From: Bryopsis sp. KO-2023
Lineage: Eukaryota > Chlorophyta > Ulvophyceae > Bryopsidales > Bryopsidaceae
Reading direction: 5' to 3'
Assembly (NCBI GenBank): GCA_030272585.1
Contig: BSYQ01000010.1
Span: forward strand, 1,798,001-1,862,000
DNA: 64,000 nt
Shown here: piece after piece, positions 15,051 to 55,028 of the stretch
How the letters are laid out: every line of letters starts with the position of its first letter
Position numbering within the stretch: the stretch's first letter is position 1
Made by a program: the position numbers and the translations under genes
The notes under the pieces: model-generated
The model's database searches: none
What the model was told of the DNA's origin: nothing
The model's input: the letters and a program-made list of their open reading frames with translations, nothing else

Positions 15051-18000
15051 TCAGAAGAAGTGCCTGATCTGTGATTTGTGCACTTCTAGGAAGGGTTTCC
15101 TACCCCTCCTGAGTTTGCCATTGGTTTCCTCAATCCTGACTCGACTGGGGGAAATCAGTTCCACTATTTTATATGGTCCCTTCCAACTTGCACTGAATTT
15201 CTGATCCTTTTTTTCAGCCCTTGCTGAATCATATAAAAGGACCTCCTCTCCCAGAAAATGATTCCAGTCAGACAATTTTTTCTGTGCATTCACCTTATCT
15301 CTGCTCTCCTTCAATCTCTGTTGAATTCTATCCCACTCCTTGCTTGATAGTGTCCACACTTTGCATGGTGGCCATCCAGTGGTTCTATTCACCATGTTGC
15401 AGACCATCCAGTTGGCCTTCTGCAGCCAATCATCCCAATACCCTCCATGATCCAACAACAGTACTCTGATTTTAGAAATCAGAGCTCTGTTCCTCCTCTC
15501 CACCACTCCATTCGCTCTGTGGTGATAAGGGGGTGTCCTCCAAACCTGAATGTGGTTGTCTTTGTACCATGCTCTCATGTCCTTCGAATGGAAGTAGGCA
15601 GCTCCATCACATAATAGGTTGTCTGGAGATCCATGAGTCGCTATCCACTCACCTAAACACTCTCTGACCTGTTTCCCCTTCACCTCCTTTGTCTTCCAAA
15701 CCATCGAATCACGAGAGAGGTGGTCCACCACCACTACTATATGATTGTGGCCAGACCTACCAGAGGGTAGTGGACCGATGATGTCCATGCCCACTGTTTG
15801 ACCAGGGTGGGTTAGATGCCCAGCTCCCCTAAGAAGTTCTTTTTCCTTCTTAGGGGCTACCCTCTGGCAGGTCTGGCAGTACCTCTGAATTTCCTCCAGA
15901 TCTCCTCTATTAGCCTTCCATCCATGTTGTGCACACAGCCATAGCAATTTTTGTGGGCTCCAGTGTCCCTCCTTGTGCAACCGTTCCAGCTGATCTCTGC
16001 TCAGCTCTTTCCCTTCCGCTATCTTGCCCAACTCCTCTCCTCTTGAGCCTCCTGTATATGCATGTCCCAACTCTGTGTTTCCTGACATGCCAGACCTTCC
16101 TGAATCACTCTCTTTAGAGTCCACTGCCTCAGCCTGCTCCAGCACCTGTTCTGTTGATCTGTTGGATCCTCCTGATTCCATGCTTGTGTTTTTACTGATT
16201 TGCATCTCTTGTGGTTCAAGTGCACACACCTGCCCTTGTGTTTGTGTTGGCCTGCTGTACCATCTAGACAGGAGATCAGCCCAAGGGTTAGATGTCCCTG
16301 GCAGGAATTGAACCCTCAACCTTCCAGGGGAGGGATAGTTCTCTGCCAACCAAGCCAAGAGACGCACCACTCTGATGTCCTCCACGACTTCTTTCGGTGC
16401 TAACTTCGTAATCCTTTGCACTGCTGAGTTCGAATCAGTGTGCAGGGTTAGCTGACCCCCAGCCACCACCTGTGAAACCGATTTCAATGCCCATATTAGA
16501 GCTTGAAGCTCCCCCAAATAGGAGCTGACTTTTTCTCCTCCCTTATCCGCACACTTTCGACTGTTGAGGCTGACGATACACCCCTCTGAGGGGGTACCTC
16601 TGAACAGAACATACCCCCACCCAGAGGATGACCAGTCTGTAAACAAATTATACTCTCCAGAATCTGAATTACCCAACTTGACATTATTAGTCAGTATGGA
16701 TTTCCATGCTTCTGCCACCAACTGTTGCATGAGTTTCGGATTCGATCCCTTGGGAAGCTCCAGCAGAGGTTGAATGATGTTATGGAAATTCGGGCAAACT
16801 CCCCTGCAGACATTAAGCATGCCGACGAATTGACGGACGTCCCTGACGTCGCGCATTTCTGGCAACTGACGCACTTGGTCGTCGACGTAGCGTCGAAGGC
16901 CGTAGCTCCCCTTCGTGACCGTGTACCCCAAGTAGGTAACCTCCTTTTGTCTGACGACCGCTTTTTTCCTGTTTATCCGTAATCCCATTTCGTCGAGCCT
17001 GGTCAGAACACGTCGCAGGTTCCTGTCATGGCCTTCGACGCCTTCTCCGCCGATTATGAGGTCGTCGACGAAGTTACGCCCGGGGTATCCATGGATAGAG
17101 CTCCGGATGCGGGAGTGGAACAGCCCTGGCGAACAGTTCCAGCCTTGGGGGAGACGGAGGTAGGTGTAATCCCCCTCTCCGGTTTCGAACGCGAAGAGGG
17201 GTTGGAGGGCGTCGCAAACGTCCACCTGGAAGAAGCCCTGCTCCAGATCCAGGACGGTGAAGTAGTCCCACTCCGGTGGGATCGACTTCAGCACATCCCG
17301 GACATGGAGCAGGGACGTCTTCCAGGCGTCCGAGTACGAGTTCAGGAGGCGGAAGTCCACCGTTTTCCTGACTTTACCATTGGGTTTGCGGAGGAACAGG
17401 ACCGGGGAGAACAGAGCCCGCTCGCCGACGCCCAGGGGACGGATGACGCCTTGCCCCTGCAACGAGGTAAGCAGTTTTCGAATCTCCTTAGGCGCGACGT
17501 CGGTGGCGTAGTACCGTATCCCCGTGTTGTGCAGCGGAATCCTGTGGAAGGGAACGCGCCATTTCACCTCCCTGTGGCAAACCCGAAGAGGAGCAGCAGT
17601 CGCCTTTGCGTCTCTGCTAAGGTCGTCACGAATCACGTTCGGAAATTCGCGTCGCCAGTATTCCACTGAGCCTGTATCCTCCGTCTCTGACTGCGTTTCC
17701 GACGTGCAGGCAGGGTGTTCCTGAGTGGTTTGCACCGTAGCAGTATGTCCGTTCCAGAGTCTTTCCCCTGTTCCTACTGCTGTGGTGTTGTCGAGAAGGT
17801 CGTCAGCCACCTCCTCCCAAATCGTCGTCAGGTGAGAGAAAGGGGATGTAGTGTGTTCGCTAAAACTTCTGCCTGGTGGTTTCCCTCTGAGGGCTTCCCA
17901 GTACTTCCAGAGATCAAGGTGCTCCTGTTCCACTGTCCCCCCTACCCCCCCCCTGGGTGAGCAGAGTAAGTTTTCCTCTTGAAGGTGAGAGACTGAACTC

Positions 18001-21000
18001 TGGTTTTTCCCCAGTATGTCACTGTTAGTGGGACTCTCAGTAGTTACAGTCTGTCCCTCAGTGTGTGTTTGTTCCACTGCCCCGACTACCCCCCCCCTGG
18101 GTGAGCAGCTCCCTTTTTCCTTTTGTGAACTCTGAACTGTACTCTGGCTCTGTCCCAAGGTTTCCCTGTCTGTAGGACTCTCAGTAGCTACAGCTTTGCT
18201 TTCTTGCAGCAGAGTGCTGTGTGCAGTCAGGCTGTTAGGTGTGAGGACACTCTGGGTGCCTTGGTCTTCCCCACATGTCCGTCCCTCTCTCCCCCTTGGT
18301 ATGTCCCTCCATTGATCCTGCTGGGGGGTGGAGAATGTACCCTGGCTTGTCCCCAGTGTAGCACTGTTTGCAGGACTCTCAGAAGCTACATTCTCCTCCT
18401 GTGTGTGGAATTTCGACTGCTGCACCCTTCCCTGAGTATCTGACTTGGGTAAGTGATGTACAGCCTCTGAACTGTTGGTGTGTAAGCCAAAATTCTTTTC
18501 TCCCTTCTCCCTATCTGAACTGATGAACTGTCCAGTAGCATTAGAGCTATTGGGCTGACATTCAAAGTCTGTGTTTGATGTCTGTGTTCTCCCCTCATTC
18601 TCAGAGTCCTTCCCCTCAATCCTGTCCCTGAGTGGATAGTGCGTAGCAGAACTCACATCCAGTTCTGTGAGAGAGGCTGTGCTCTGGCTCTTCCTCAGTG
18701 TTGCACTGTTTGTTGGATTCTCAGTAGCTACAGCCTCACTGTTCTGTGTTGTTAAACTCCGTAACACACACCCATCCCCTGAACTGAGATGCTGTTCTCC
18801 AGAGTCGGAACTGATGGTCGGTATATCCCTGTTTTGGACAGAATTCGATAGTACTCTACTGTCCCCCTCTGGGCTCAACTGCTGTCCAACAGATGCAAGC
18901 TGGCCTGTTTGTGAATCACAGTCCTGATTCGACTGCATTGTGCCCCAACTGCCCTTCGAACCACTGGTTCTGTCAAACACTTCCAGTGACCCACAGTCAT
19001 TCTTTGGTGGTGGAAAAGAAACCTTTTTACATCCTCCATCTCCCTGTTTTTCTATTCCAGAACACCCCCCCTCCTCAGATTCCACTTCCTGTGGTGGAAA
19101 AGAAACTGTTTGACATCCTCCATCTCCCTTCTTTTCAATCCCAAAACACCCCTCCTCCTCAGGTTCCACTTCCTCCTTCTCTCTGAGATCCAAACCATGG
19201 GGCAGTAAACCATCCTCCTCCCGTTCGACACATTCCTCCTCTGCTCCTCCTTCCTCTATCACCACCGGCGTTCCCTCAGCCACCCTGAAGCTAACCAAAC
19301 ACAGTTTTGCAGTAAGCATCCTCGCCTCCAACTGGGCGTTATACAGCGTGAGTCGAACTCTTCCGTCGGAGTTCGTCGTCACAGAGTGAAGGAGGTTGTG
19401 GGGTTGTCCTATGGCCATTAACGAAAACAGGCCAGGCCCAGTAATTCGAAAAGGAAGAACAACCGTTTTAATCGCGTAGGGTCCCAGAACCAACGACGAA
19501 CCCAGGGGTAACCGAAACTCCCCATCCTTCCCCACTAAACGAATCCTGCGTCCTTTTTTCGTGAGGGGGTCTTGCAGCACTCGAACCACACCCCGCTCTA
19601 ACTCTCCCGACTTCTCCCCTACCTTCATGACTGCGTGGCAAGGGATGGACGTTCCGTTCTTGCCCCAGAGGCAGTTGCGAGCGCAGTCGACGGTGAGGGA
19701 AAGGTGTGCGAGTAGGGGGACGCCCAGAATAATCTGGGATGTGTTTTCCGAAACCAAAAATACTTCCTTCCCCTCCCACGGTCCTACTTTGACGTCGAGC
19801 GTCACCGTCCCTCGCACGCTCTCCTTGCTTCCATTGAACCCGGTCAGCGTTAGCACTCCTTTCGGAGGAGCGACTCCCCATCCGTGCCTTTGACATACCT
19901 TCCATGGCATGATGGAGCATCCACTTCCGCTGTCGACCAACGCTTCGAAAAGGTGGTTACTCCCTCCCTGTTCTCCTTCCAGCCTGAGTTTCACCCGAAG
20001 TTGTTTTCGCACCGTATCTCCGGCGGGCGTTCCTGCTGCGACCGAATGGCACGACGACGACGGCTGCTCGTGCTGTATTGCCTCCAGCAGCTCGCCGAAA
20101 GCATCTTCTTCCACACTCGCCACCTGCGCTCTCCTCTTCGTCCGGCACTGCGCTTCCCAGTGCCCCTTCCGCCCGCAGAACTGGCAGTACGGAATCTCTC
20201 CCGTCCGAGTAGGTGGCCTGTCCGCCACCAAAACTTTCGTCCCCACCTTAGGTTCTGCTTTAGCATCCACTTTCACTTCTGTCTTCCCCTCCTCCTCCTT
20301 CTTTACTTCCGCGAGAACTGCTTCCCTGTATTCCGTCCTCCTCTTCATTCGATCCAAAAGCTCCCGAAGTCCGCTGAAGGTCAGTTTTTCGAACTCTGTT
20401 TCCAACACGACGCGGCTCAACACCCTCCCCGGTAACCGGGCCACGAGTAGCTTGACCGCTTTTTTCTCCTCTTCCACCTCCGCCGCTTGTCCCGTGTTTA
20501 AGAACATCAGGAAAAACCGCTGCAAGAACTCCAACTCTGTCTCCTCCTCCGTTTGTTGCAGCCGCCGAAGTCTGTCCAACGTAGCTGATCCCTCCGTCGA
20601 AACTGAAGCCGCAGGCGCCGCACTCCCGAGCTCCAGGACTTCCCTTCTCATCGCCGTCTCTGTTCTACGCCGCCGTAACCATGCAGAACCTTTGTCGAGG
20701 AACTTCAGTAGGTACCCCAGCAGAAGCGAGGAGGCGATCCCTGCTCCGACCAGGTTGGCGTTGGATCCCCGCAGGACTCCCCAGAGCTTGTGCATCCTGT
20801 CTGCAAGCTGCACAAGCTCCAGGGTGTCCCACGCAGCAGCGGGGTTCGGTGAAGGGGAGGGTAGGGCACGATGTGAGTGTCGATGTCTGATCGACCACAT
20901 CAGCCTCTGCCAGAGCTCGTGTGGAGACGTTCTGGGCGTGTGAGGCGTAGAGAATGGAGGAGGTGATGGGGGATACGTTGCTGGCGCCCTTCCGGCTGGT

Positions 21001-21119
21001 GTTGCCGGCGCCGCATTTTGATCTGATATCGTCGGTGGTCGCTGTAACAGCAGCGACATACCGGCTAGTAGAGCCAAGCCCCCAAAGGCCAGGATCCACC
21101 CTGTTCGCTCCGAAACCAT
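15051..21119 (-). CDS. RT1 gag-pol polyprotein (single frame)
   Basis: A single frame of 2022 residues from the ATG at 21119-21117. The frame also runs a few codons into the LTR without an ATG, so this ATG is the natural start; its A is the last base of the LTR and its TG the first bases of the primer-binding site. In order: an N-terminus with a hydrophobic stretch (WILAFGGLALLAGMSLLL) and a second one ~110 residues later; a Gag region; a CCHC knuckle (CQFCGRKGHWEAQC); a retropepsin motif (LVDSGSGCS); an unusually long Ser/Thr/Gln/Glu-rich spacer of several hundred residues with internal repeats (NPTNSATL, GDGGC); reverse transcriptase (FTVLDLEQGFF, LPQGWNCSPGLFH, NFVDDLII); RNase H (LFTDWSSSGWG, LHTDSN); integrase with H-H-C-C, DIIGPLP, CDGAAYF and NGVVERRN. 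Gag and Pol are fused with no frameshift. Confidence 0.93.
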   Translation of the reverse strand: MVSERTGWILAFGGLALLAGMSLLLQRPPTISDQNAAPATPAGRAPATYPPSPPPFSTPHTPRTSPHELWQRLMWSIRHRHSHRALPSPSPNPAAAWDTLELVQLADRMHKLWGVLRGSNANLVGAGIASSLLLGYLLKFLDKGSAWLRRRRTETAMRREVLELGSAAPAASVSTEGSATLDRLRRLQQTEEETELEFLQRFFLMFLNTGQAAEVEEEKKAVKLLVARLPGRVLSRVVLETEFEKLTFSGLRELLDRMKRRTEYREAVLAEVKKEEEGKTEVKVDAKAEPKVGTKVLVADRPPTRTGEIPYCQFCGRKGHWEAQCRTKRRAQVASVEEDAFGELLEAIQHEQPSSSCHSVAAGTPAGDTVRKQLRVKLRLEGEQGGSNHLFEALVDSGSGCSIMPWKVCQRHGWGVAPPKGVLTLTGFNGSKESVRGTVTLDVKVGPWEGKEVFLVSENTSQIILGVPLLAHLSLTVDCARNCLWGKNGTSIPCHAVMKVGEKSGELERGVVRVLQDPLTKKGRRIRLVGKDGEFRLPLGSSLVLGPYAIKTVVLPFRITGPGLFSLMAIGQPHNLLHSVTTNSDGRVRLTLYNAQLEARMLTAKLCLVSFRVAEGTPVVIEEGGAEEECVEREEDGLLPHGLDLREKEEVEPEEEGCFGIEKKGDGGCQTVSFPPQEVESEEGGCSGIEKQGDGGCKKVSFPPPKNDCGSLEVFDRTSGSKGSWGTMQSNQDCDSQTGQLASVGQQLSPEGDSRVLSNSVQNRDIPTISSDSGEQHLSSGDGCVLRSLTTQNSEAVATENPTNSATLRKSQSTASLTELDVSSATHYPLRDRIEGKDSENEGRTQTSNTDFECQPNSSNATGQFISSDREKGEKNFGLHTNSSEAVHHLPKSDTQGRVQQSKFHTQEENVASESPANSATLGTSQGTFSTPQQDQWRDIPRGREGRTCGEDQGTQSVLTPNSLTAHSTLLQESKAVATESPTDRETLGQSQSTVQSSQKEKGSCSPRGGVVGAVEQTHTEGQTVTTESPTNSDILGKNQSSVSHLQEENLLCSPRGGVGGTVEQEHLDLWKYWEALRGKPPGRSFSEHTTSPFSHLTTIWEEVADDLLDNTTAVGTGERLWNGHTATVQTTQEHPACTSETQSETEDTGSVEYWRREFPNVIRDDLSRDAKATAAPLRVCHREVKWRVPFHRIPLHNTGIRYYATDVAPKEIRKLLTSLQGQGVIRPLGVGERALFSPVLFLRKPNGKVRKTVDFRLLNSYSDAWKTSLLHVRDVLKSIPPEWDYFTVLDLEQGFFQVDVCDALQPLFAFETGEGDYTYLRLPQGWNCSPGLFHSRIRSSIHGYPGRNFVDDLIIGGEGVEGHDRNLRRVLTRLDEMGLRINRKKAVVRQKEVTYLGYTVTKGSYGLRRYVDDQVRQLPEMRDVRDVRQFVGMLNVCRGVCPNFHNIIQPLLELPKGSNPKLMQQLVAEAWKSILTNNVKLGNSDSGEYNLFTDWSSSGWGYVLFRGTPSEGCIVSLNSRKCADKGGEKVSSYLGELQALIWALKSVSQVVAGGQLTLHTDSNSAVQRITKLAPKEVVEDIRVVRLLAWLAENYPSPGRLRVQFLPGTSNPWADLLSRWYSRPTQTQGQVCALEPQEMQISKNTSMESGGSNRSTEQVLEQAEAVDSKESDSGRSGMSGNTELGHAYTGGSRGEELGKIAEGKELSRDQLERLHKEGHWSPQKLLWLCAQHGWKANRGDLEEIQRYCQTCQRVAPKKEKELLRGAGHLTHPGQTVGMDIIGPLPSGRSGHNHIVVVVDHLSRDSMVWKTKEVKGKQVRECLGEWIATHGSPDNLLCDGAAYFHSKDMRAWYKDNHIQVWRTPPYHHRANGVVERRNRALISKIRVLLLDHGGYWDDWLQKANWMVCNMVNRTTGWPPCKVWTLSSKEWDRIQQRLKESRDKVNAQKKLSDWNHFLGEEVLLYDSARAEKKDQKFSASWKGPYKIVELISPSRVRIEETNGKLRRGRKPFLEVHKSQIRHFF
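21107..21118 (-). promoter_or_regulatory. RT1 primer-binding site
   Basis: TGGTTTCGGAGC immediately follows the 5' LTR terminal CA on the minus strand. TGG complements a tRNA 3' CCA end. The same 12 bases occur just after the 5' LTR of RT2 (48717), although the elements are otherwise unrelated. Confidence 0.75.
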
Positions 21120-21445
21120 GTTGTTACTGGAAGAACGAGCCTTCCGCAAAAAAAGTCTTACAACAAAAAGACAACCCCGAACTCCCGTTCACAGACTTTC
21201 CTTCCCGACTCACTCAACTCTCACACTTCCTCCACTGACTCATACCTCGTACTTCTAACGTAAAACCCCTACTGCCATGGGGCCTCTCACCCGCACTGAC
21301 CAGTCGATTCAACACATTTGACATCGCTCTCAGAGTCAAATCGTGTGGTAGTACTTTCATTAGAAATGAGTGTCCGTTGTGTGGATTTGTTGATGTGACG
21401 CTCTTATGTCTGTCTTTCAGTACTTGTGTTCTACCCGGTCCAACA
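21119..21445 (-). repeat. RT1 5' LTR
   Basis: 327-bp LTR at the upstream end of the minus-strand element, apparently identical to 14524-14850. It is expected to hold the RT1 promoter; no clear TATA box was identified. Confidence 0.95.
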
Positions 21446-22667: not shown

Positions 22668-22800
22668 GAGTTTAGGTGCATAACACCTCTTAAAAATAAT
22701 GATTTAGAGCGATTGCATTCGCAAATGGCCCTCGGTATCCTTTAGTAAAAGGCGAAAGGGTAGCACGACAGCAGAACCATCTGCACCGCTTGTACCAAAT
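22668..22800 (-). ncRNA. U5 spliceosomal snRNA
   Basis: On the minus strand the U5 invariant loop I is present as CGCCTTTTACTAAAG (loop core at 22753-22744). It caps a CCTTT/AAAGG stem, and a lower 12-bp stem is made from GCAGATGGTTCT and AGGGCCATTTGC. An Sm-like site (ATTTTTAAG, 22697-22689) follows, then a 3' terminal hairpin AGGTG-TTATG-CACCT (22688-22674). This order (loop I stem, Sm site, 3' hairpin) is the U5 architecture. U5 loop I holds exon ends during splicing, which fits the intron-rich genes nearby. The 5' end is approximate and no promoter element was identified. Confidence 0.88.
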
Positions 22801-24876
22801 CACTGAAAGTCTAATTATATGAAGCAAATATAATCATTTCCTGCTGATGTTTCTGAAAATGATGGACCAAAAACAAAGAAAAGCCATCCAAGTGGCGGCT
22901 GTTCAATTTTTTTTGTTTGGTGCCGAGGAGCGCAAGCGCTTTCTCAGCCTACCAAAAATAGTACCGTGGGAGCACCCCATAAGGGGTCCCTGCCTCGACC
23001 GATCCATTGGTGCCAAAAGATCAGAAGAGACAGACCGTTCCTCTGGGTGAGCAGGAACAAGCCCCGGTCAGGTAAGTATGATTTTTCTATGGGAGGGAGT
23101 CCTCTGATAAAGGAACTGGGGGCTTTTTTGCTTTTGAAGTTTTCAAGTCTCAGACCTGAGCTCGAGTCCCTTCGATTGACAGTTTTGGGATTAGATGTTG
23201 CACACAAACAATCAAATAAGGATTACGAAATGACAGAAGAGGCAGGAACGCCTTTTGGCGAGGCTTAAAGGAGGATGGTGGTTGGACGAAGAAGGGAGCA
23301 AGTGGACGGCACCCCTCCCCCATGGCCAGAAAGAGCAACACACCCAGACCAAAAATACCCTTTTCGCACTTCGTGTAACTCATGCAATCAAAGAAACAAC
23401 CAAAACACTGCTGGCCACTCATGGATCTGGGCTCCACCACCAGCAGCACAATCTGCTGCCGCTGTGGGAGCAATTGTCAATAAGCCCTCTCTTCCATGAT
23501 CCGAGTGTTGTCAAACCGAAGTGTTACTCCGTTCGCTAGCGCTGTAATGTGATGCATCACAAATAAACATATGTTTATTTGTTCGCTGCTGTTCCAACCC
23601 ACGCACGATCGGCGGCGCGCGGGCCATGCAGAAATCAATCAGCCGCCTTGCGCTGCGAAAGAATCCCAGACCCGAAGGTTGATCTAGAAACCGCCGAACA
23701 AGGGACAAGACCCGCACTTTTCATTTGTAATATCCTATTACACGTCCCGAGAGTTCCTCGGTTGATCCCTTCCTGTCTGCTTTATCTGGGTTCAAGGATG
23801 CGGGACATGATTTCCCGAAGCCACGGACAGGAGCTGGCCTCGTCACCAAATGCGGACGTGACTCCACGGCCTTCGCGAAGTCCCACTCGCAAGCAAGCAA
23901 GAAAACAAACAAACAAACAAACAGTTTTTCACCTGTTGATGGTCATAGCATTATGTTTTGCAGCCGCCGGCCGTGTCACGTGATCCTGCCGCAGTCGGGA
24001 TTGAGTCAAGTGATCGTGGGGATGTGTCGAGGTGTTTTTGGACGACGATGGGTGGACTGCACCTGTAACGTCGCTCTTTTGGTATCTAGTTCTGTTTATC
24101 GCTGAGCGCTGGGTTTTTTTTGCAAAAGGGCTTATGGATCCTACTTAATTTTTGATGAGGTGAACCAAACAGCAGCAGTGCCATCATCCATACAAGCCTC
24201 CCAACAAAAAACGAACCCCCTTTTTCAATGAATAAGTGCCTACCTACCCACCCACAGAGCATGTTTGATTGATATATGAGTGGACACTTTCCTGGAGTTG
24301 TTGTTCGATCAGGTCTGTAGTGTCAAATAGCGCCCGGTTTGGAATCCAACCACACAATCGCACACCGTCAAATTAGGATGACACCGTCATCCTAATTTTT
24401 TCCTGCTGCTCGTTGTGTTTCACTGAAGTGGAAAGAGTGCTTCAGATAACATAACATAATATCTTGATCAATACCTTGGGATGACCTGCCATGTAATATT
24501 CATTGATCGATCCAACTGCCAATGAACTGGAAAATTGAAAACCTCGATTGTTGATCGCAAGAATAAATCTTTCTCCTGAAATAAAAGAAGAGAATGACCA
24601 CGTCATCACCACAGAGCTTTTTTTCATCATGATAATATAATTTCTTTGAGCATTTGGGACTCGAACCCTTTTCTGTGCCCCTTCCTGACACAAATGCCCT
24701 TTTTTTTGTTTTTTTTCCACCTCCGAGAGTTTTTTTTTTTTTTTTTTAATAATATGCCCCACCTCAAGAAATAAATAAATAAACATGCGCTCCCTTCAAA
24801 AACTGTTTTTTTTTTTTTTTTCTCGAGTTTTTTTTTCATCCCCACCCACCCCACCCAGTAAAAAAGTGAAATAAAT
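22801..24876. other. Intergenic; no gene resolved
   Basis: About 2 kb. A CpG-richer part (about 23530-24070) contains a GTCACGTGATC E-box-like site near 23975 and could be a promoter, but no coding exon with good splice signals could be tied to it. A B-box-like GGGTTCGAGTCC occurs on the minus strand near 24660, next to A/T homopolymers. The plus-strand frame at 23579-23983 is open but has no recognised domain. Confidence 0.4.
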
Positions 24877-48734: not shown

Positions 48735-50524
48735 GAACCGACTGGACTGGAGCTCTCCGCTGGTTTGACCAGCAGGTTTGTTCGAGGCGCTTAACGCCAG
48801 TCGTAAGGTCGTGGGAAAACGGAAAAAGGCAAACGCAGTGAACGGGAAAAAAGGAAAACGTGTGGTAGCAATGTTGGAAAAGAAGCACACCCATAAAAAG
48901 AGAGAAAAGAGGGTGCCAACGTTCAGTCGTGTGACAGGACATTTGGGAAAAAGGTTACCCTGTAACCTGCGTCGCTGTCAGCGAACTGTAGTACTCAGGT
49001 TCGAAGGGTTAGAGTCGGACGTGAAGGGGTATAGTAGTATTACGTATAGTAACTCTCACGGCAAGGGCACGTGGGTTATCCGTTCACAGTTCGGCAAGGA
49101 CAGGTCGTGGCGCGAAAGTCAACGGTCTACAGTTGACAGTAACCGTTGCCTGGAAAGTCAACTGAAAGTCAAGCGACCAGAATGGCTCTGGTTCCGGTCG
49201 TTACAGAAAGCGACATGGTCGCGATAAGCGACGAAGTCATGGAAGGGTCAGAAGTGCAACCAATGGTGCACCAGCAAATTCAGAATATACAGATTAATGG
49301 TTCTGATCACACTGAAATGCAAAGACAGATTGAGGTCTGGGGTGGAACAGTAACCAACCACCTCCAGCAATCATTGACCTCCATGCAGAGTCAGGTTCAA
49401 CAAGTCCAGGTTGAACTCTATACACACAGAGAGCAAGCAGAGCTACATCAGTCAACTCTAAAGGAAGAGTTGCAGTCAGCCTTAGTGCACAGTTTGGAAG
49501 AACAGAGTCGAAAACTACAGCAGACTCAGGAGCTACATGCAAAGGACTTTTATCAAAGCCTCACTGCAAATACAAATACTCAACTGAAGGACCTTGGTGA
49601 ACAGTTGAGAAGTACAGGAAAAGATCATGCTGTGGGCATGGCTCAGTGGAAAAATAAGAACCAAACAGAGCTGGAACTATTCCAGAAGAAGCAGTTAGCT
49701 CTACAGGAGCAACTGATGTTGGTTCAAAAGAAACAACAGGAAGATATTAATGCCCAATTATATGAAGTGTCTCAGCACATGCAAAGAATGCAAAAACAGC
49801 TGATGGAAGAGAGGGAGAGTATGACAAACACAATGACTAGCATACTGCAAGGAGAATTGGACTCCTATCCTGCAGTCATTCAGAAAATGGTAGCTACAGC
49901 AGTGGATGAAACCACCACAGCTATTGAGGACAAGTATAACAATGCTGAAGGACAGAAAGCAGATCTAGAAGAGACTAGATGGGCTTTAACTGATCCAGAA
50001 TATCAGAAAGCAGTTGATGGCTGGATGAAGGATGGAATCCTGAGAACACCTATTCCTCCACAAGTGATGCAAGTGCATATGATGCAAGCAACACAAACAG
50101 TACAGAATACAGAGGAAGGAGAAACTGAGGGACAAACTCAGGATATCCCAACATCTGGTCAGCCACCAGTACAGCAAGTTATACCTGCCACAAGTACTGG
50201 AGCAGTACCTCCAGGACCCTCTTCTTTAGGTCTAATAGACCTCACTTCAGGACAACAACTGTCCATGGGTTTACCACCCCCTATACTGCAACCACCAGCA
50301 GTAACTATAGCACCTCCAGCTACCTTTACTTTAGGTACTACCCCAGCACCATCAGGAATGGGAATTAGACCACCAAATCCCTTTGAACAGTTAACAAGTC
50401 AAAGAGCACCCAGTGGTGGTGCACCTGGAGGAAATCCAGGGGATCCAAATGGATCAAATGGACCAAATGGCCCAGACAGACCAGGCATGCCTAGAGCATC
50501 TGGTTCTGGACATCCAGGGCCAGG

Positions 50525-50990
50525 CAGAGATAGGACTTGGGCCAAAATTCTGGTCCGGCTACGGTCCGGTCCGGTTACGGTCGAGTTACGGTTCCGTATT
50601 ACGGCCGTAACTCCGTACCGTAACCGGAGTAATATGTTGTTTTTACGGTACGGAACAGGTACGGTATAGCTACGGTAGCCCCTAGATCATCGTGAAGTAG
50701 TGTGGTTCAGTGCTAAAGCGTTAGGCTGTAGTCTGTAAGGTCGTGGGTTCGAATCCCCCTGGGTTCCTTTGGGTTCTCGGGACCCTGCGGGGGTTACTAT
50801 TTACGGTTTACGGTTGGTACGGTGGTTACGGTCGGTACGGTCCGGTACCGGAGCAGTACGGAGTGGTACGGTGGTCCGGTTCCGAGCACGAAAACCACTC
50901 CGGTCCGGACCGTAACTACCGTAACCGTAAGTGACCGGAGTGGGGTTACGGTACGGTTTACGGTACCGTAACCGGAAAGTCCTATCTCTG
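50525..50990. mobile_element. Non-autonomous DNA transposon 1 (hAT-like), 466 bp
   Basis: Terminal inverted repeats CAGAGATAGGACTT (50525-50538 and 50977-50990) are perfect over 14 bp. The 8-bp target duplication GGGCCAGG is at 50517-50524 and 50991-50998. An 8-bp duplication with a CAG-starting inverted repeat is typical of hAT elements. It has no coding capacity. Both arms are built from variations of TACGGT, CCGTAACCG and GGTCCGG, giving many overlapping palindromes; between them is a tRNA-like sequence. It is CpG-rich inside a CpG-poor host frame. Confidence 0.9.
50700..50760 (+). other. tRNA-like sequence in transposon 1
   Basis: GTGTGGTTCAGTGCTAAAGC (A-box/D-arm-like) followed by TAGTCTGTAAGGTC and GTGGGTTCGAATCCCC (B box, near-perfect T-arm). 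Acceptor pairing is not evident. It shares TAGTCTGT.AGGTC and the B box with a copy in transposon 2. Confidence 0.55.
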
Positions 50991-51892
50991 GGGCCAGGGA
51001 ATGGTGGTGATGGTGGTGGAGGTGATGGAGGAGGTCCCCCAGGAGGAGGACCACCTGATAGAGATCCTAGTGGTACATCAGGAGGTTCAGGACAAGGTCC
51101 TGATAGACCTTACAGCAAACAGATTAAGCTCACTCCCCCAGAGAAATTCACAGGAGATGAAAGGATGTCTGCAACAGAATGGATACTAGGAATGAAGAGA
51201 TGGTTGCAGAATCAACACATCTTAGAGAGGGACTGGTTATCCTGTTTTCAGTCACATCTCCAGGGAGATGCACTTAGCTGGTTAAACCTGATGGATATAC
51301 AGATCATGAATCAGGAAAAAGCAGAGTATGCTAGCTGGCAAGAGTTCACTCAAGAACTAAGGAATGTTTTTGAGCCAGTCTCCCTAATAGAGACTGCCAG
51401 AAAACAATTAAGAACTCTAAGGCAGACTGGAACTGCCTTAGGCTACATCAGACTCTTCAGAAAGCTGATGTTTAGACTCCCCAATCTACCTCAAGAAGAA
51501 AGATATGCAGCCTTTGTGGATGGGCTCTCAGATAGAAATATGCAAGCACAGGTTATGACCCTGTGTGATGGAGATCTAGATAAGGCCATCCTCACAGTCC
51601 AAAGACTCTCTGCAACTATAGGCAGTAGAGGTGGCACTACTAGCAGTTTTAGAGGCAGAGGTAGAGGGAGGGGAAGATTTGGACAGAGAAATACACAGAT
51701 GTCAGCAATGATGTCTGCTGCAACATCACAACTGCCTCCTGCAGCAAATTCAGTTAAGGCTGTGCAGCAGAGAGGTCAGATGGGATCTAGGCCCTCAAGG
51801 GGAGGATCCTTCAAGTGTTTTCTATGTGGAAGCACAGAGCATGGGGTAAGACAGTGTCCCAAACTGTCCCAAGCTCAGAAAGCCCTGAAGAA

Positions 51893-51899
51893 GGGAAAC
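51893..51899 (+). promoter_or_regulatory. -1 ribosomal frameshift heptamer GGGAAAC
   Basis: G GGA AAC, in the gag frame, immediately before the gag stop TAA. It fits the X XXY YYZ rule, and the protease frame is exactly the -1 frame. No downstream pseudoknot was modelled. Confidence 0.75.
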
Positions 51900-52540
51900 T
51901 AAAAGAGGAGGCTAGTGTTGGGTCAGCTAAGCCTCCAGATGATATTGAAATGAAAGAACCCACTACAAAAACACCAGCCTCACTAAATGATGGTGTTCAA
52001 GAGACACCTGTGGTTGCAGCCCCTATTGCAACAGAACAGGAAGCATACACACTGGATGGGGTCACTCCAGGAGTGTTAATTCAAAAGAAAAAGCAGTCTC
52101 AAAAGAGAGTGGATAAACAAACAGAGGCCACTGTGAGTTTACCCACTAGAGTGGAAAGAAATGTTGAGGGAAAGGAACCAGTTCAGACTGCAGTAGCTCA
52201 GGCTACAGCAGCATATAGAGGATATGAACTGGCAGGATTTATTGGTGCAAAGAAAGCTACAGCATACATTGATACAGGATCCACTGCTAACTATATTAGC
52301 ATGGATGCAGTCAAGGAACTGGGACTGCAATACAAACCACAAGAAACTCCTGTTAAGTTTCTAGATGGTACAGAAAGGAAATCAGTAGGGAGATGTTATG
52401 GCATCCCATTTGTCTGTGGAAAGATCCAGCTCTCATTTGATGCTGATGTCTTTCCAGACAGTAATCACCCAATCCACAACTGCCAGGGGATTTACTTGCT
52501 GGAAAAGCTCAAGCTGAAGCAGAGTCAGTACAAGAGATGA
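51893..52540 (+). pseudogene. RT2 protease region (pro), truncated
   Basis: The -1 frame relative to gag. A charged linker of about 110 residues is followed by a retropepsin-type active site (AYIDTGSTANYIS) and surrounding strands. The frame then runs into the internal deletion and stops at 52538-52540. The normal continuation into RT is lost. Confidence 0.8.
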
Positions 52541-53082
52541 TATCTCATATGCAGGAAGTCATCAATGATGCCAAGGACAGATATAAAACAGCCCAAGAGA
52601 AGATGAGGCAGCAAGCAAATAAAAGGAGAAGGGATGTACAGTTTCAAGTGGGAGAAAAGGTGTTGCTCTCCACAAAGACATTGAATTTATCAGTCTTGAA
52701 ACATATTCCAGTGAAAATCAGAAGAAGATATATAGGGCCTTTTGTTATTGCTGCTGCAGTGGGATCTGTGGCATATAGATTGGTGTTACCAAATGGATGG
52801 AAATTACATCCTGTATTTCATGTATCAAAGTTGAGAAAACTTCAAGAGAGTTCTAAGTTTCCTAGGGAGGTAATGGCACCTCCAGCAGAATTAGATTCTG
52901 AGGGAGAAGAAGAATTTGAAGTTGAGGCTGTAGTAAGACATAAGTTTTCAGGAAGGAAAAGAAGATTTTTAGTAGTCTGGAAGGGGTATCCACTTAGTGA
53001 AGCAACCTGGGAACCCCAAGACAATTTATTGAATGCATCAGAGATCCTGGCTGATTATAAGAGGAGAGCTGGGATCAGGTAG
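52498..53082 (+). pseudogene. RT2 integrase C-terminus with chromodomain
   Basis: Begins at the deletion junction in a different frame from the protease. It holds the integrase C-terminal region (DAKDRYKTAQEKMRQQANKR, FQVGEKVLLSTK, HPVFHVSKLR) and a chromodomain (RRFLVVWKGYPLSEATWEP). A chromodomain at the end of integrase marks the chromovirus branch of Ty3/gypsy, where it directs insertion to modified histones. The catalytic D,D-35-E core is absent. Confidence 0.85.
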
Positions 53083-53852: not shown

Positions 53853-53995
53853 AGATGTATAAGCAGAAGAATTCGACGCAACCACAAGCACCAGGAGGAC
53901 ACAAAAAAATGGGCGCAGAAAATTGTCGATATTGGAGCTATGGTTTCCACCCCCCTTCAATCGTTCCAGCCACACTCTTTTCGAAGTGCTGTGGT

Positions 53996-55020
53996 CATAC
54001 TATGGATCCGATCACGATCTAATCGGTCGTGGATTGATCGGTCCGACCGATTAAATCGTGATCGGGTTTTTCCGATCAGATCGATCGCCGATCAAATCGG
54101 TTTGGCCGATCATCGATGGAGATCGGCCGATCACCAATCTGATCGGCTGACCGATGAAATCGGCCGACTATGAACGGCCGATCACGATCACACCGACCAA
54201 CATCGGCCGATCAAGCGCCGACAGGGCGAGGCGCTTGATCGTGATCGTGGTCGTGATCGGAGATGCCGATTAGATCGGATCATGATCGGTCAATTGATCG
54301 GTCCATCACAAATGCCGAGAAATCACCACCCGCAGGTGTTTCTGGGGTGCAGGGATTCGAACCTGAGACCTAACAGACTAGAGACAGACGCATTAACGCT
54401 TGGACCACTCGGAGCCACGGTCACTAGGTCATCCGTGTCATTATATACCTCAGTTTGTCGGACTGACAGATCACGTATATAATGACACGGATGACCTACA
54501 AACCGTGGCTCCGAGTGGTCCAAGCGTTAGTGAGTATGCTTCTAATCCGATAGGTACCCGGTTCGAATCCTTCCACCTCAGAAACACCTGCGGGTGGTGA
54601 CTTGTCGGCATTTTCGCGAGACCGATCAATTCATCGATCAAATGATCAATACCGATCATGATCGGATGCAGGTCCGATCACGATCGGTCGATCACGATTA
54701 CACCGATCAAGGTCAGCCGATGAAGTGCCGACAGGTCGCGGCGCTTGATCGTGATCGGGATCGTGATCGGAACAACCGATCAGATCGGTGATCGGCGAAC
54801 CGATCACGATCACGATCAACATGTGATCGGACGATCAAGAGCACGATCAACATTTGATCGGCCGATCACGATCACGATCACCGATCAGCCAAAAATGAAA
54901 AAAAAAAAAAAAAAAACCGATCATTGCTAAAATAGGTTCTAGGACGCAGTTATGATGTCGGATTACTGCTGTGACCTAATATTACCTTAGTTTTGGAAGA
55001 TCGATCAGATCCATAGTATG
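53996..55020. mobile_element. Non-autonomous DNA transposon 2, 1025 bp, GATCGG-armed
   Basis: Terminal inverted repeats CATACTATGGATCYGATC (53996-54013 and 55003-55020, one mismatch) with an 8-bp target duplication GCTGTGGT (53988-53995 and 55021-55028). The 8-bp duplication suggests hAT or P-type transposition; the ends differ from transposon 1. No coding capacity. The arms consist almost entirely of GATCGG/CCGATC, CGATCACGATC and related palindromes, giving dozens of GATC sites. A ~50-bp block (GCCGACAGG.CG.GGCGCTTGATCG) occurs twice in direct orientation near 54217 and 54728. The centre is a palindrome with two inverted tRNA-like units. Confidence 0.9.
54311..54612. repeat. Central palindrome with two inverted tRNA-like units
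   Basis: About 302 bp. It begins AATGCCGAGAAATCACCACC and ends with the imperfect reverse complement (GGTGGTGACTTGTCGGCATT). Each half carries a tRNA-like unit reading away from the centre: minus strand about 54420-54346 and plus strand about 54504-54578. Both have GTGGCTCCGAGTGGTCCAAG as A box (class II, Ser/Leu-like) and GGTTCGAATCC as B box. The central part (GTCATCCGTGTCATTATATA and its complement) is a further hairpin. Confidence 0.85.
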
Positions 55021-55028
55021 GCTGTGGT

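Follow-up and report, generated by a model that had tools for sequence, protein, structure and literature searches.

A hAT mini-element family in Bryopsis with Ac/Ds-like organisation and a paired tRNA-like centre that may act as an RNA polymerase III promoter

A 1025-bp element in the genome of the green alga Bryopsis sp. KO-2023 raises the question of what moves it, and of what is done by its centre, which is made of two outward-facing tRNA-like units. The element occupies positions 53996..55020 of the window, by which we mean the whole 64,000-nucleotide stretch analysed (positions 1,798,001 to 1,862,000, forward strand, of contig BSYQ01000010.1, here C10, assembly GCA_030272585.1). The explanation proposed is that it is probably a non-autonomous, Ds-like hAT transposon with a fixed filler, whose centre would serve as an RNA polymerase III (Pol III) promoter. 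Its membership of the hAT elements is virtually certain, and the identification of the mini-element together with a likely hAT partner is secure. For the candidate function of the centre, a working bidirectional, tRNA-derived Pol III promoter is the favoured interpretation, although unproven.

The original prediction, made from the window alone, was of a transposon family whose other copies should have the same ends and 8-bp target duplications, and a search of the whole genome (91.1 Mb, 28 contigs) has found them. The terminal 13-mer CATACTATGGATC occurs 381 times, against no occurrence of its reversed control, and at least 40 copies, taken from the best-scored of 312 first-look candidates, match the 1025-bp element over its full length at 97-99%. 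Perfect 8-bp duplications flank all 48 two-ended insertions examined, namely 44 mini-elements (about 0.5-1.5 kb), a 1.9-kb copy and three long elements; these were picked for having both ends, so that the count is uninformative on truncated copies. The target preference of the 48 insertions is palindromic and near GYNRYNRC. The target of Ac-family hAT elements is nTnnnnAn, which in its strict form is fitted by 11 of the 48 and in the relaxed form nYnnnnRn by 39; the Buster-type target nnnTAnnn is found at only one. Joined flanks match sequence that is continuous across the insertion point in 14 of 47 cases, with 100% identity to uninterrupted sequence over 295 bp at one locus (L022) and 100% over 300 bp at another (L035), the latter inside a long hAT element. 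The median distance of a copy to the consensus is 8 substitutions (39 copies).

Some copies lie in unusual places or carry additional sequence. One (L012, G000 C7:8741-9765) is found within a CCCTAAA telomere-type repeat, with CCCTAAAC as its target, and C11:3887150-3889207 reads as one copy inserted into another. Two more (L049 and L055) have insertions of 0.4-0.5 kb within the centre, flanked by short repeats of element sequence.

It had also been proposed to look for an autonomous hAT or P partner with the same ends, and a hAT partner has been identified. At three loci (L039, L040 and L041), facing ends lie 6850, 7335 and 7286 bp apart, respectively, which gives elements of 6.9-7.3 kb that have the 13-bp end core of the mini-element and perfect 8-bp duplications. 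Two of these three long elements (L039 and L040) harbor an open transposase frame of 839 codons; in L041, the transposase match is split. The product of this frame matches PF05699, the hAT dimerisation domain (E 7.8e-16), and, in its C-terminal part, the Hermes transposase (E 1.4e-8). Uninterrupted full-length frames with 99-100% identity are present at eight or more places in the genome, and a second transposase lineage, at 62-68% identity, at no fewer than 35; two further matches at 55-57% are among those listed, the best 54 of 307 candidates having been scored. A search of the protein database with the transposase (7999 candidates scored) returned three matches, two of them unnamed proteins at 39-40% and the third a RICESLEEPER-like protein from a plant, aligned to 8% of the query at 33%. 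As judged from the ends and arms that they have in common, the mini-element is apparently moved by the transposase of the long elements.

The second-lineage matches (e.g., G000 C1:1607264-1609636) mostly contain, among those listed, exactly one in-frame TGA, which possibly represents one shared position or an intron. Both L040 (4061-5200, minus strand) and L039 contain a further open frame, of 380 and 352 codons, in which P-rich repeats are arranged in tandem and for which no Pfam match was obtained in L040.

The layout of the element, in window positions, is the following:

53988..53995, unstranded: target duplication, left copy, GCTGTGGT (window sequence)
53996..54013, plus strand: left terminal inverted repeat, CATACTATGGATC and 5 bp more (inverted-repeat pair, 17/18 match)
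53996..54260, plus strand: left arm, dense in GATC and CCGATC and common to the long hAT elements (alignment to L039, L040 and L041)
54261..54643, unstranded: centre (element 266-648), which the three long elements read do not have (alignment)
54283..54448, minus strand: palindrome left arm, which is the left-facing tRNA-like unit (84% complementary to the right arm)
54353..54363, minus strand: B box of the left-facing unit, GGTTCGAATCC (the same in both family consensuses)
54405..54417, minus strand: A box of the left-facing unit, TGGCTCCGAGTGG (sequence)
54435..54447, minus strand: left-facing TATA motif, TATATAATGACAC (sequence)
54449..54474, unstranded: loop of 26 nt separating the palindrome arms (1/26 sites variable in 81 centres)
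54475..54640, plus strand: palindrome right arm, which is the right-facing tRNA-like unit (84% complementary to the left arm)
54476..54488, plus strand: right-facing TATA motif, TATATAATGACAC (sequence)
54506..54518, plus strand: A box of the right-facing unit (sequence)
54560..54570, plus strand: B box of the right-facing unit (sequence)
54611..54614, plus strand: TTTT, a possible Pol III stop for the right-facing unit (sequence)
54644..54895, plus strand: right arm, GATC-dense, with 31-bp tandem copies at 54801-54880 (sequence)
54896..55020, plus strand: right tail with an A19 run, common to the long elements (sequence)
55003..55020, minus strand: right terminal inverted repeat (inverted-repeat pair, 17/18 match)
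55021..55028, unstranded: target duplication, right copy, GCTGTGGT (window sequence)

Several features of this layout had been anticipated. The perfect 8-bp duplication is indeed read on both flanks, and the arms are dense in GATC; the 18-bp terminal inverted repeats exist, with one mismatch between them, and the central palindrome is present but measures 358 bp instead of 302 bp.

The arms (element 1-265 and 649-900, 517 bp in total) hold 44 GATC sites; 1000 single-base shuffles gave 2.0 on average and never more than 7. Their density per 100 bp is 7.2 in the left arm and 9.9 in the right arm, against 0.36 in the rest of the window, and it is lower, 3.2, in the last 125 bp on the 3' side. The long element has 7.2 GATC per 100 bp at its left end, 6.9 at its right end and 1.2 in its interior. 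Because GATC is dense at the ends of the long element and not inside it, the arms are most simply understood as subterminal arrays that bind the transposase, a putative function that we consider highly probable. CCGATC is the likely binding motif, by analogy with the hexamer of Ac, of which several copies in the terminal 200 bp are bound by the Ac transposase, as far as the cited passages go (PMC3260210). When the mini-element is aligned to L039, L040 and L041, its first 265 bp agree with their left ends at 97-99%, and element 649-1025 agrees with their right ends at about 86%, as a mosaic in which identity per 50 columns varies between about 70% and 100%. Because arms of this kind are already present in the long elements, those of the mini-element need no slippage history of their own.

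It could be argued that the GATC arrays serve as sites of adenine methylation or repair, and not of transposase binding. Adenine methylation at ApT sites has been reported in green algae, and a stretch of arm so crowded with GATC is in keeping with such a use. This explanation is nevertheless very improbable, as the arrays are located at the ends of a transposase-bearing element, where Ac-type transposases bind subterminal hexamers according to the passages cited (PMC3260210), and as GATC bases are no substitution hot spots. In 39 copies, substitutions at GATC were not raised for A (5/58 sites vs 28/221) or for T (1/58 vs 22/176), and no excess of C>T was seen at CpG (8/99 vs 18/158), so that decay of the methylation type was rejected. 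Array position and substitution counts do not measure methylation, and methylation and binding uses could coexist.

The centre was not found in the three long elements read. Its palindrome consists of two 166-nt arms, 84% complementary, with 26 nt between them, and its folding energy as single-stranded DNA is -143.8 kcal/mol, compared with a shuffle mean of -46.0 (z = -22). Pol III type 2 promoters are recognised here by the A and B box consensus. Each unit combines a B box (GGTTCGAATCC) with an A box (TGGCTCCGAGTGG) that is preceded, 30 bp upstream, by TATATAA, and in both consensus units the starts of the two boxes are 54 bp apart, which is within type 2 spacing. When compared with tRNAs of the genome (30 distinct sequences from 20 loci), the right unit has tRNA-Leu(AAG) as its best match and a similarity of 31, where the highest of 200 shuffles scored 26; the left unit reaches 27 against a shuffle maximum of 26, and the right unit of a second family, family 2, reaches 27 against 24. 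The prediction of two outward-facing tRNA-like units is thus borne out for the A and B boxes and not for a match to a tRNA model. A comparison by eye only of the core with U1 and U5 genes gave no obvious common upstream element. Rfam matches to mir-489 and mir-144 (37.1 bits at best, where the gathering score is 61) were set aside as a reflection of the hairpin.

The units travel with the element. The loop 20-mer is found at 156 genome places (up to 2 mismatches) and the unit core at 243; of the 100 cores listed among these 243, a listed loop is found within 70 bp of 95 and a loop at 476 bp from 1, the other 4 forming outward pairs 117 bp apart, and in this listed set no independent dispersal of units with variable-length duplications, in the manner of short interspersed nuclear elements (SINEs), was seen. 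Conversely, a marker of the right arm is found at 97 places, 84 of them with a listed loop within 340 bp and 4 more with a unit or loop within 1.3 kb, so that at least 88 have the centre nearby and at most 9 are without a listed centre, mismatched loops being only partly listed. One of the places without it (L052) reads as loss of the centre between direct repeats.

The same kind of centre is also found between other arms. Two elements of family 2, L048 (1073 bp) and L047 (1068 bp), both with perfect duplications, have centres 83% identical to that of the window element, and the arm of L048 aligns over 200 bp, at 97% identity, with L007, located at a second-lineage transposase. A homologous centre joined to a second-lineage arm indicates that arms go with their transposase lineage, whereas both families have the centre in common. 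This may come either from a common ancestral mini-element or from exchange of arms. A listed loop lies within 6 kb of four transposase matches (C7, C10, C11 and C12).

The way in which the centre changes bears on whether it does anything. In 81 centres of family 1 (64 distinct), variable sites make up 9/48 of the A and B boxes, compared with 112/284 of the non-box palindrome (p = 0.006) and 42/82 of the stretch between the boxes (p = 3.5e-4), and block permutation for slower box change gave 0.015 on sites and 0.0001 on cells. Among sites that are identical in the two arms, variants carried by three or more copies are found at 0/48 box sites and 27/236 sites outside (p = 0.012), and those carried by two or more at 2/48 and 38/236 (p = 0.038), while singletons are equally frequent (8 in 48 box sites, 40 in 236 outside). 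This pattern fits a course of events in which mutations would arrive everywhere and copies with damaged boxes would not multiply. Between the families, the B boxes differ at 0/22 positions and the TATA-loop-TATA core at 2/44, against 49/266 in the rest of the palindrome (p = 0.019 and p = 0.026, respectively). Slower change of the boxes gives indirect support to the predicted Pol III transcription from both halves, which is plausible.

A number of observations weigh against a promoter that is maintained in the centre. The box tests are modest, were chosen after the data had been seen and have p values uncorrected for multiple testing, and the contrast between shared variants and singletons has p = 0.098 with the cut at two copies (0.028 with the cut at three). 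The A boxes differ between families at 5/26 positions; these differences we take to be at degenerate consensus positions or to restore the consensus. A strand bias of C>T changes in 58 copies (27 vs 11, p = 0.014; 2 of 60 copies dropped for more than 40 differences) is weaker in the 81 centres (40 vs 25, p = 0.08), where singletons do not have it (10 sense, 15 antisense) and only shared variants do (30 vs 10, p = 0.002), with an uncertain direction of mutation; because of this weakening and of the singletons, a transcription-linked bias was dropped as support. ARAGORN detected no tRNA in the window, nor in the element at default settings (relaxed settings only gave scattered hits on the element), and the Rfam tRNA model RF00005 does not appear among the matches obtained at E <= 1 or E <= 5; an intact tRNA gene in the centre was accordingly rejected. 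The resemblance of the units to tRNAs of the genome is weak, and the left unit of family 2 does not exceed its shuffles (26 vs a maximum of 27). A TTTT run is present within the element only for the right unit, the left one being without an equivalent, and just 1 of 38 distinct tRNA genes of the genome examined has a TATA motif upstream.

The proposed mechanism begins with the transposase of the long element, which would bind the 13-bp ends and the CCGATC arrays, excise the mini-element and re-insert it at GYNRYNRC-like sites. The centre, presumably derived from a leucine- or serine-type tRNA, would be a bidirectional Pol III promoter in which diverging TATA motifs are followed by the A and B boxes, and TFIIIC or Pol III bound to it may keep copies accessible, making them easier to mobilise. 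The palindrome would then be a by-product of inverted duplication, and not the selected feature. The chances that the centre can recruit Pol III factors are about even; that this recruitment helps the element to spread is a tentative suggestion. In its fullest version, a cut-and-paste DNA transposon would depend on a bidirectional Pol III promoter that it has captured; the copies that multiply would be those with intact boxes and TATA core, and two mini-element families would have kept the module while their arms followed two different transposase lineages. As a whole, this version is rather unlikely.

The main competitor is an ordinary hAT miniature inverted-repeat transposable element (MITE) with inert filler, into which an inverted tRNA-derived pair was captured by chance and has since been hitch-hiking. 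On this account, the slow boxes are due to common descent, to the arms homogenising each other and to small numbers, and its probability is only slightly below one half. The palindrome arms do appear to exchange sequence, as 37 of 50 variants at arm-differing sites match the other arm, though ancestral variation could give the same result, and the derivatives without a listed centre, up to 9/97, persist. Nevertheless, the boxes stand out even when compared with arm-identical non-box sites, and two families with different transposase lineages keep the centre, in which the B boxes and the core are least changed. It has also been proposed that the palindrome itself is functional, a cruciform or hairpin aiding transposition, replication or escape from silencing, and the original prediction named selection for foldback structure among its possibilities. 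Such a role would agree with the strong predicted folding and with arms that are still 84-86% matched; however, as a palindrome the consensus of the abundant copies (85.5%) falls short of seven more divergent ones (90.6-93.5%), and the unchanged stretches are the boxes and the core, not the stem in general. A functional palindrome is therefore improbable, and selection for foldback is disfavoured.

Elsewhere in the window, U1 and U5 small nuclear RNA genes are located at 22672-23079 (minus strand), on the same strand and about 130 bp apart, and long frames that by eye resemble retrotransposon polyproteins at 15051-21188 (minus strand) and 49143-53082 (plus strand). The protein encoded at 32427-33461 matches BSKO_11069 of Bryopsis sp. 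KO-2023, a coenocytic alga, with 99% identity over 92% of the query. On another contig (G000 C5, about 2.78-3.77 Mb, L070-L078), tRNA genes form long tandem arrays; each unit, of about 3 kb, repeats a set of different tRNA genes that numbers up to about a dozen.

Exploiting the Pol III machinery is a strategy associated with SINEs. Should the boxes be under selection, a DNA transposon would be using this machinery for a purpose other than producing a template for retrotransposition, and whether occupancy by Pol III or TFIIIC shields transposons from silencing or makes them more mobile could then be tested directly. With many near-identical copies, and with open partner frames in the same alga, such tests are feasible. 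Even on the plain interpretation, this is a clear algal pair of the Ac/Ds type with a new subterminal motif. A search of open-access literature by title gave no MITE or hAT element with an inverted tRNA-like centre.

Known systems resemble the Bryopsis element in different parts. In tRNA-derived SINEs, the Pol III A and B boxes lie in a degenerate tRNA-like unit. The Bryopsis centre is similar in this respect, but its two units face outward as a pair and are contained in an element that has hAT ends and duplications fixed at 8 bp. The Drosophila element Mar, a hAT MITE of the Buster family, is likewise short and non-autonomous with 8-bp duplications, and differs in its target, given in the cited passages as nnnTAnnn (PMC3517528), which fits 1/48 Bryopsis insertions, against 39/48 for nYnnnnRn. 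The closest likeness is to the maize hAT system Ac/Ds, with Ds1 and Ds2, which, in the parts of the source cited (PMC3260210), has 8-bp duplications, short inverted ends, subterminal arrays of a hexamer to which the transposase binds (a putative function in Bryopsis), and short elements with a long mobilising partner, Ds1 also having a common filler. The Bryopsis family differs from it in its ends, CATACTATGGATC, and its motif CCGATC, in place of the Ac ends and AAACGG, and in a filler that is an inverted pair of tRNA-like units.
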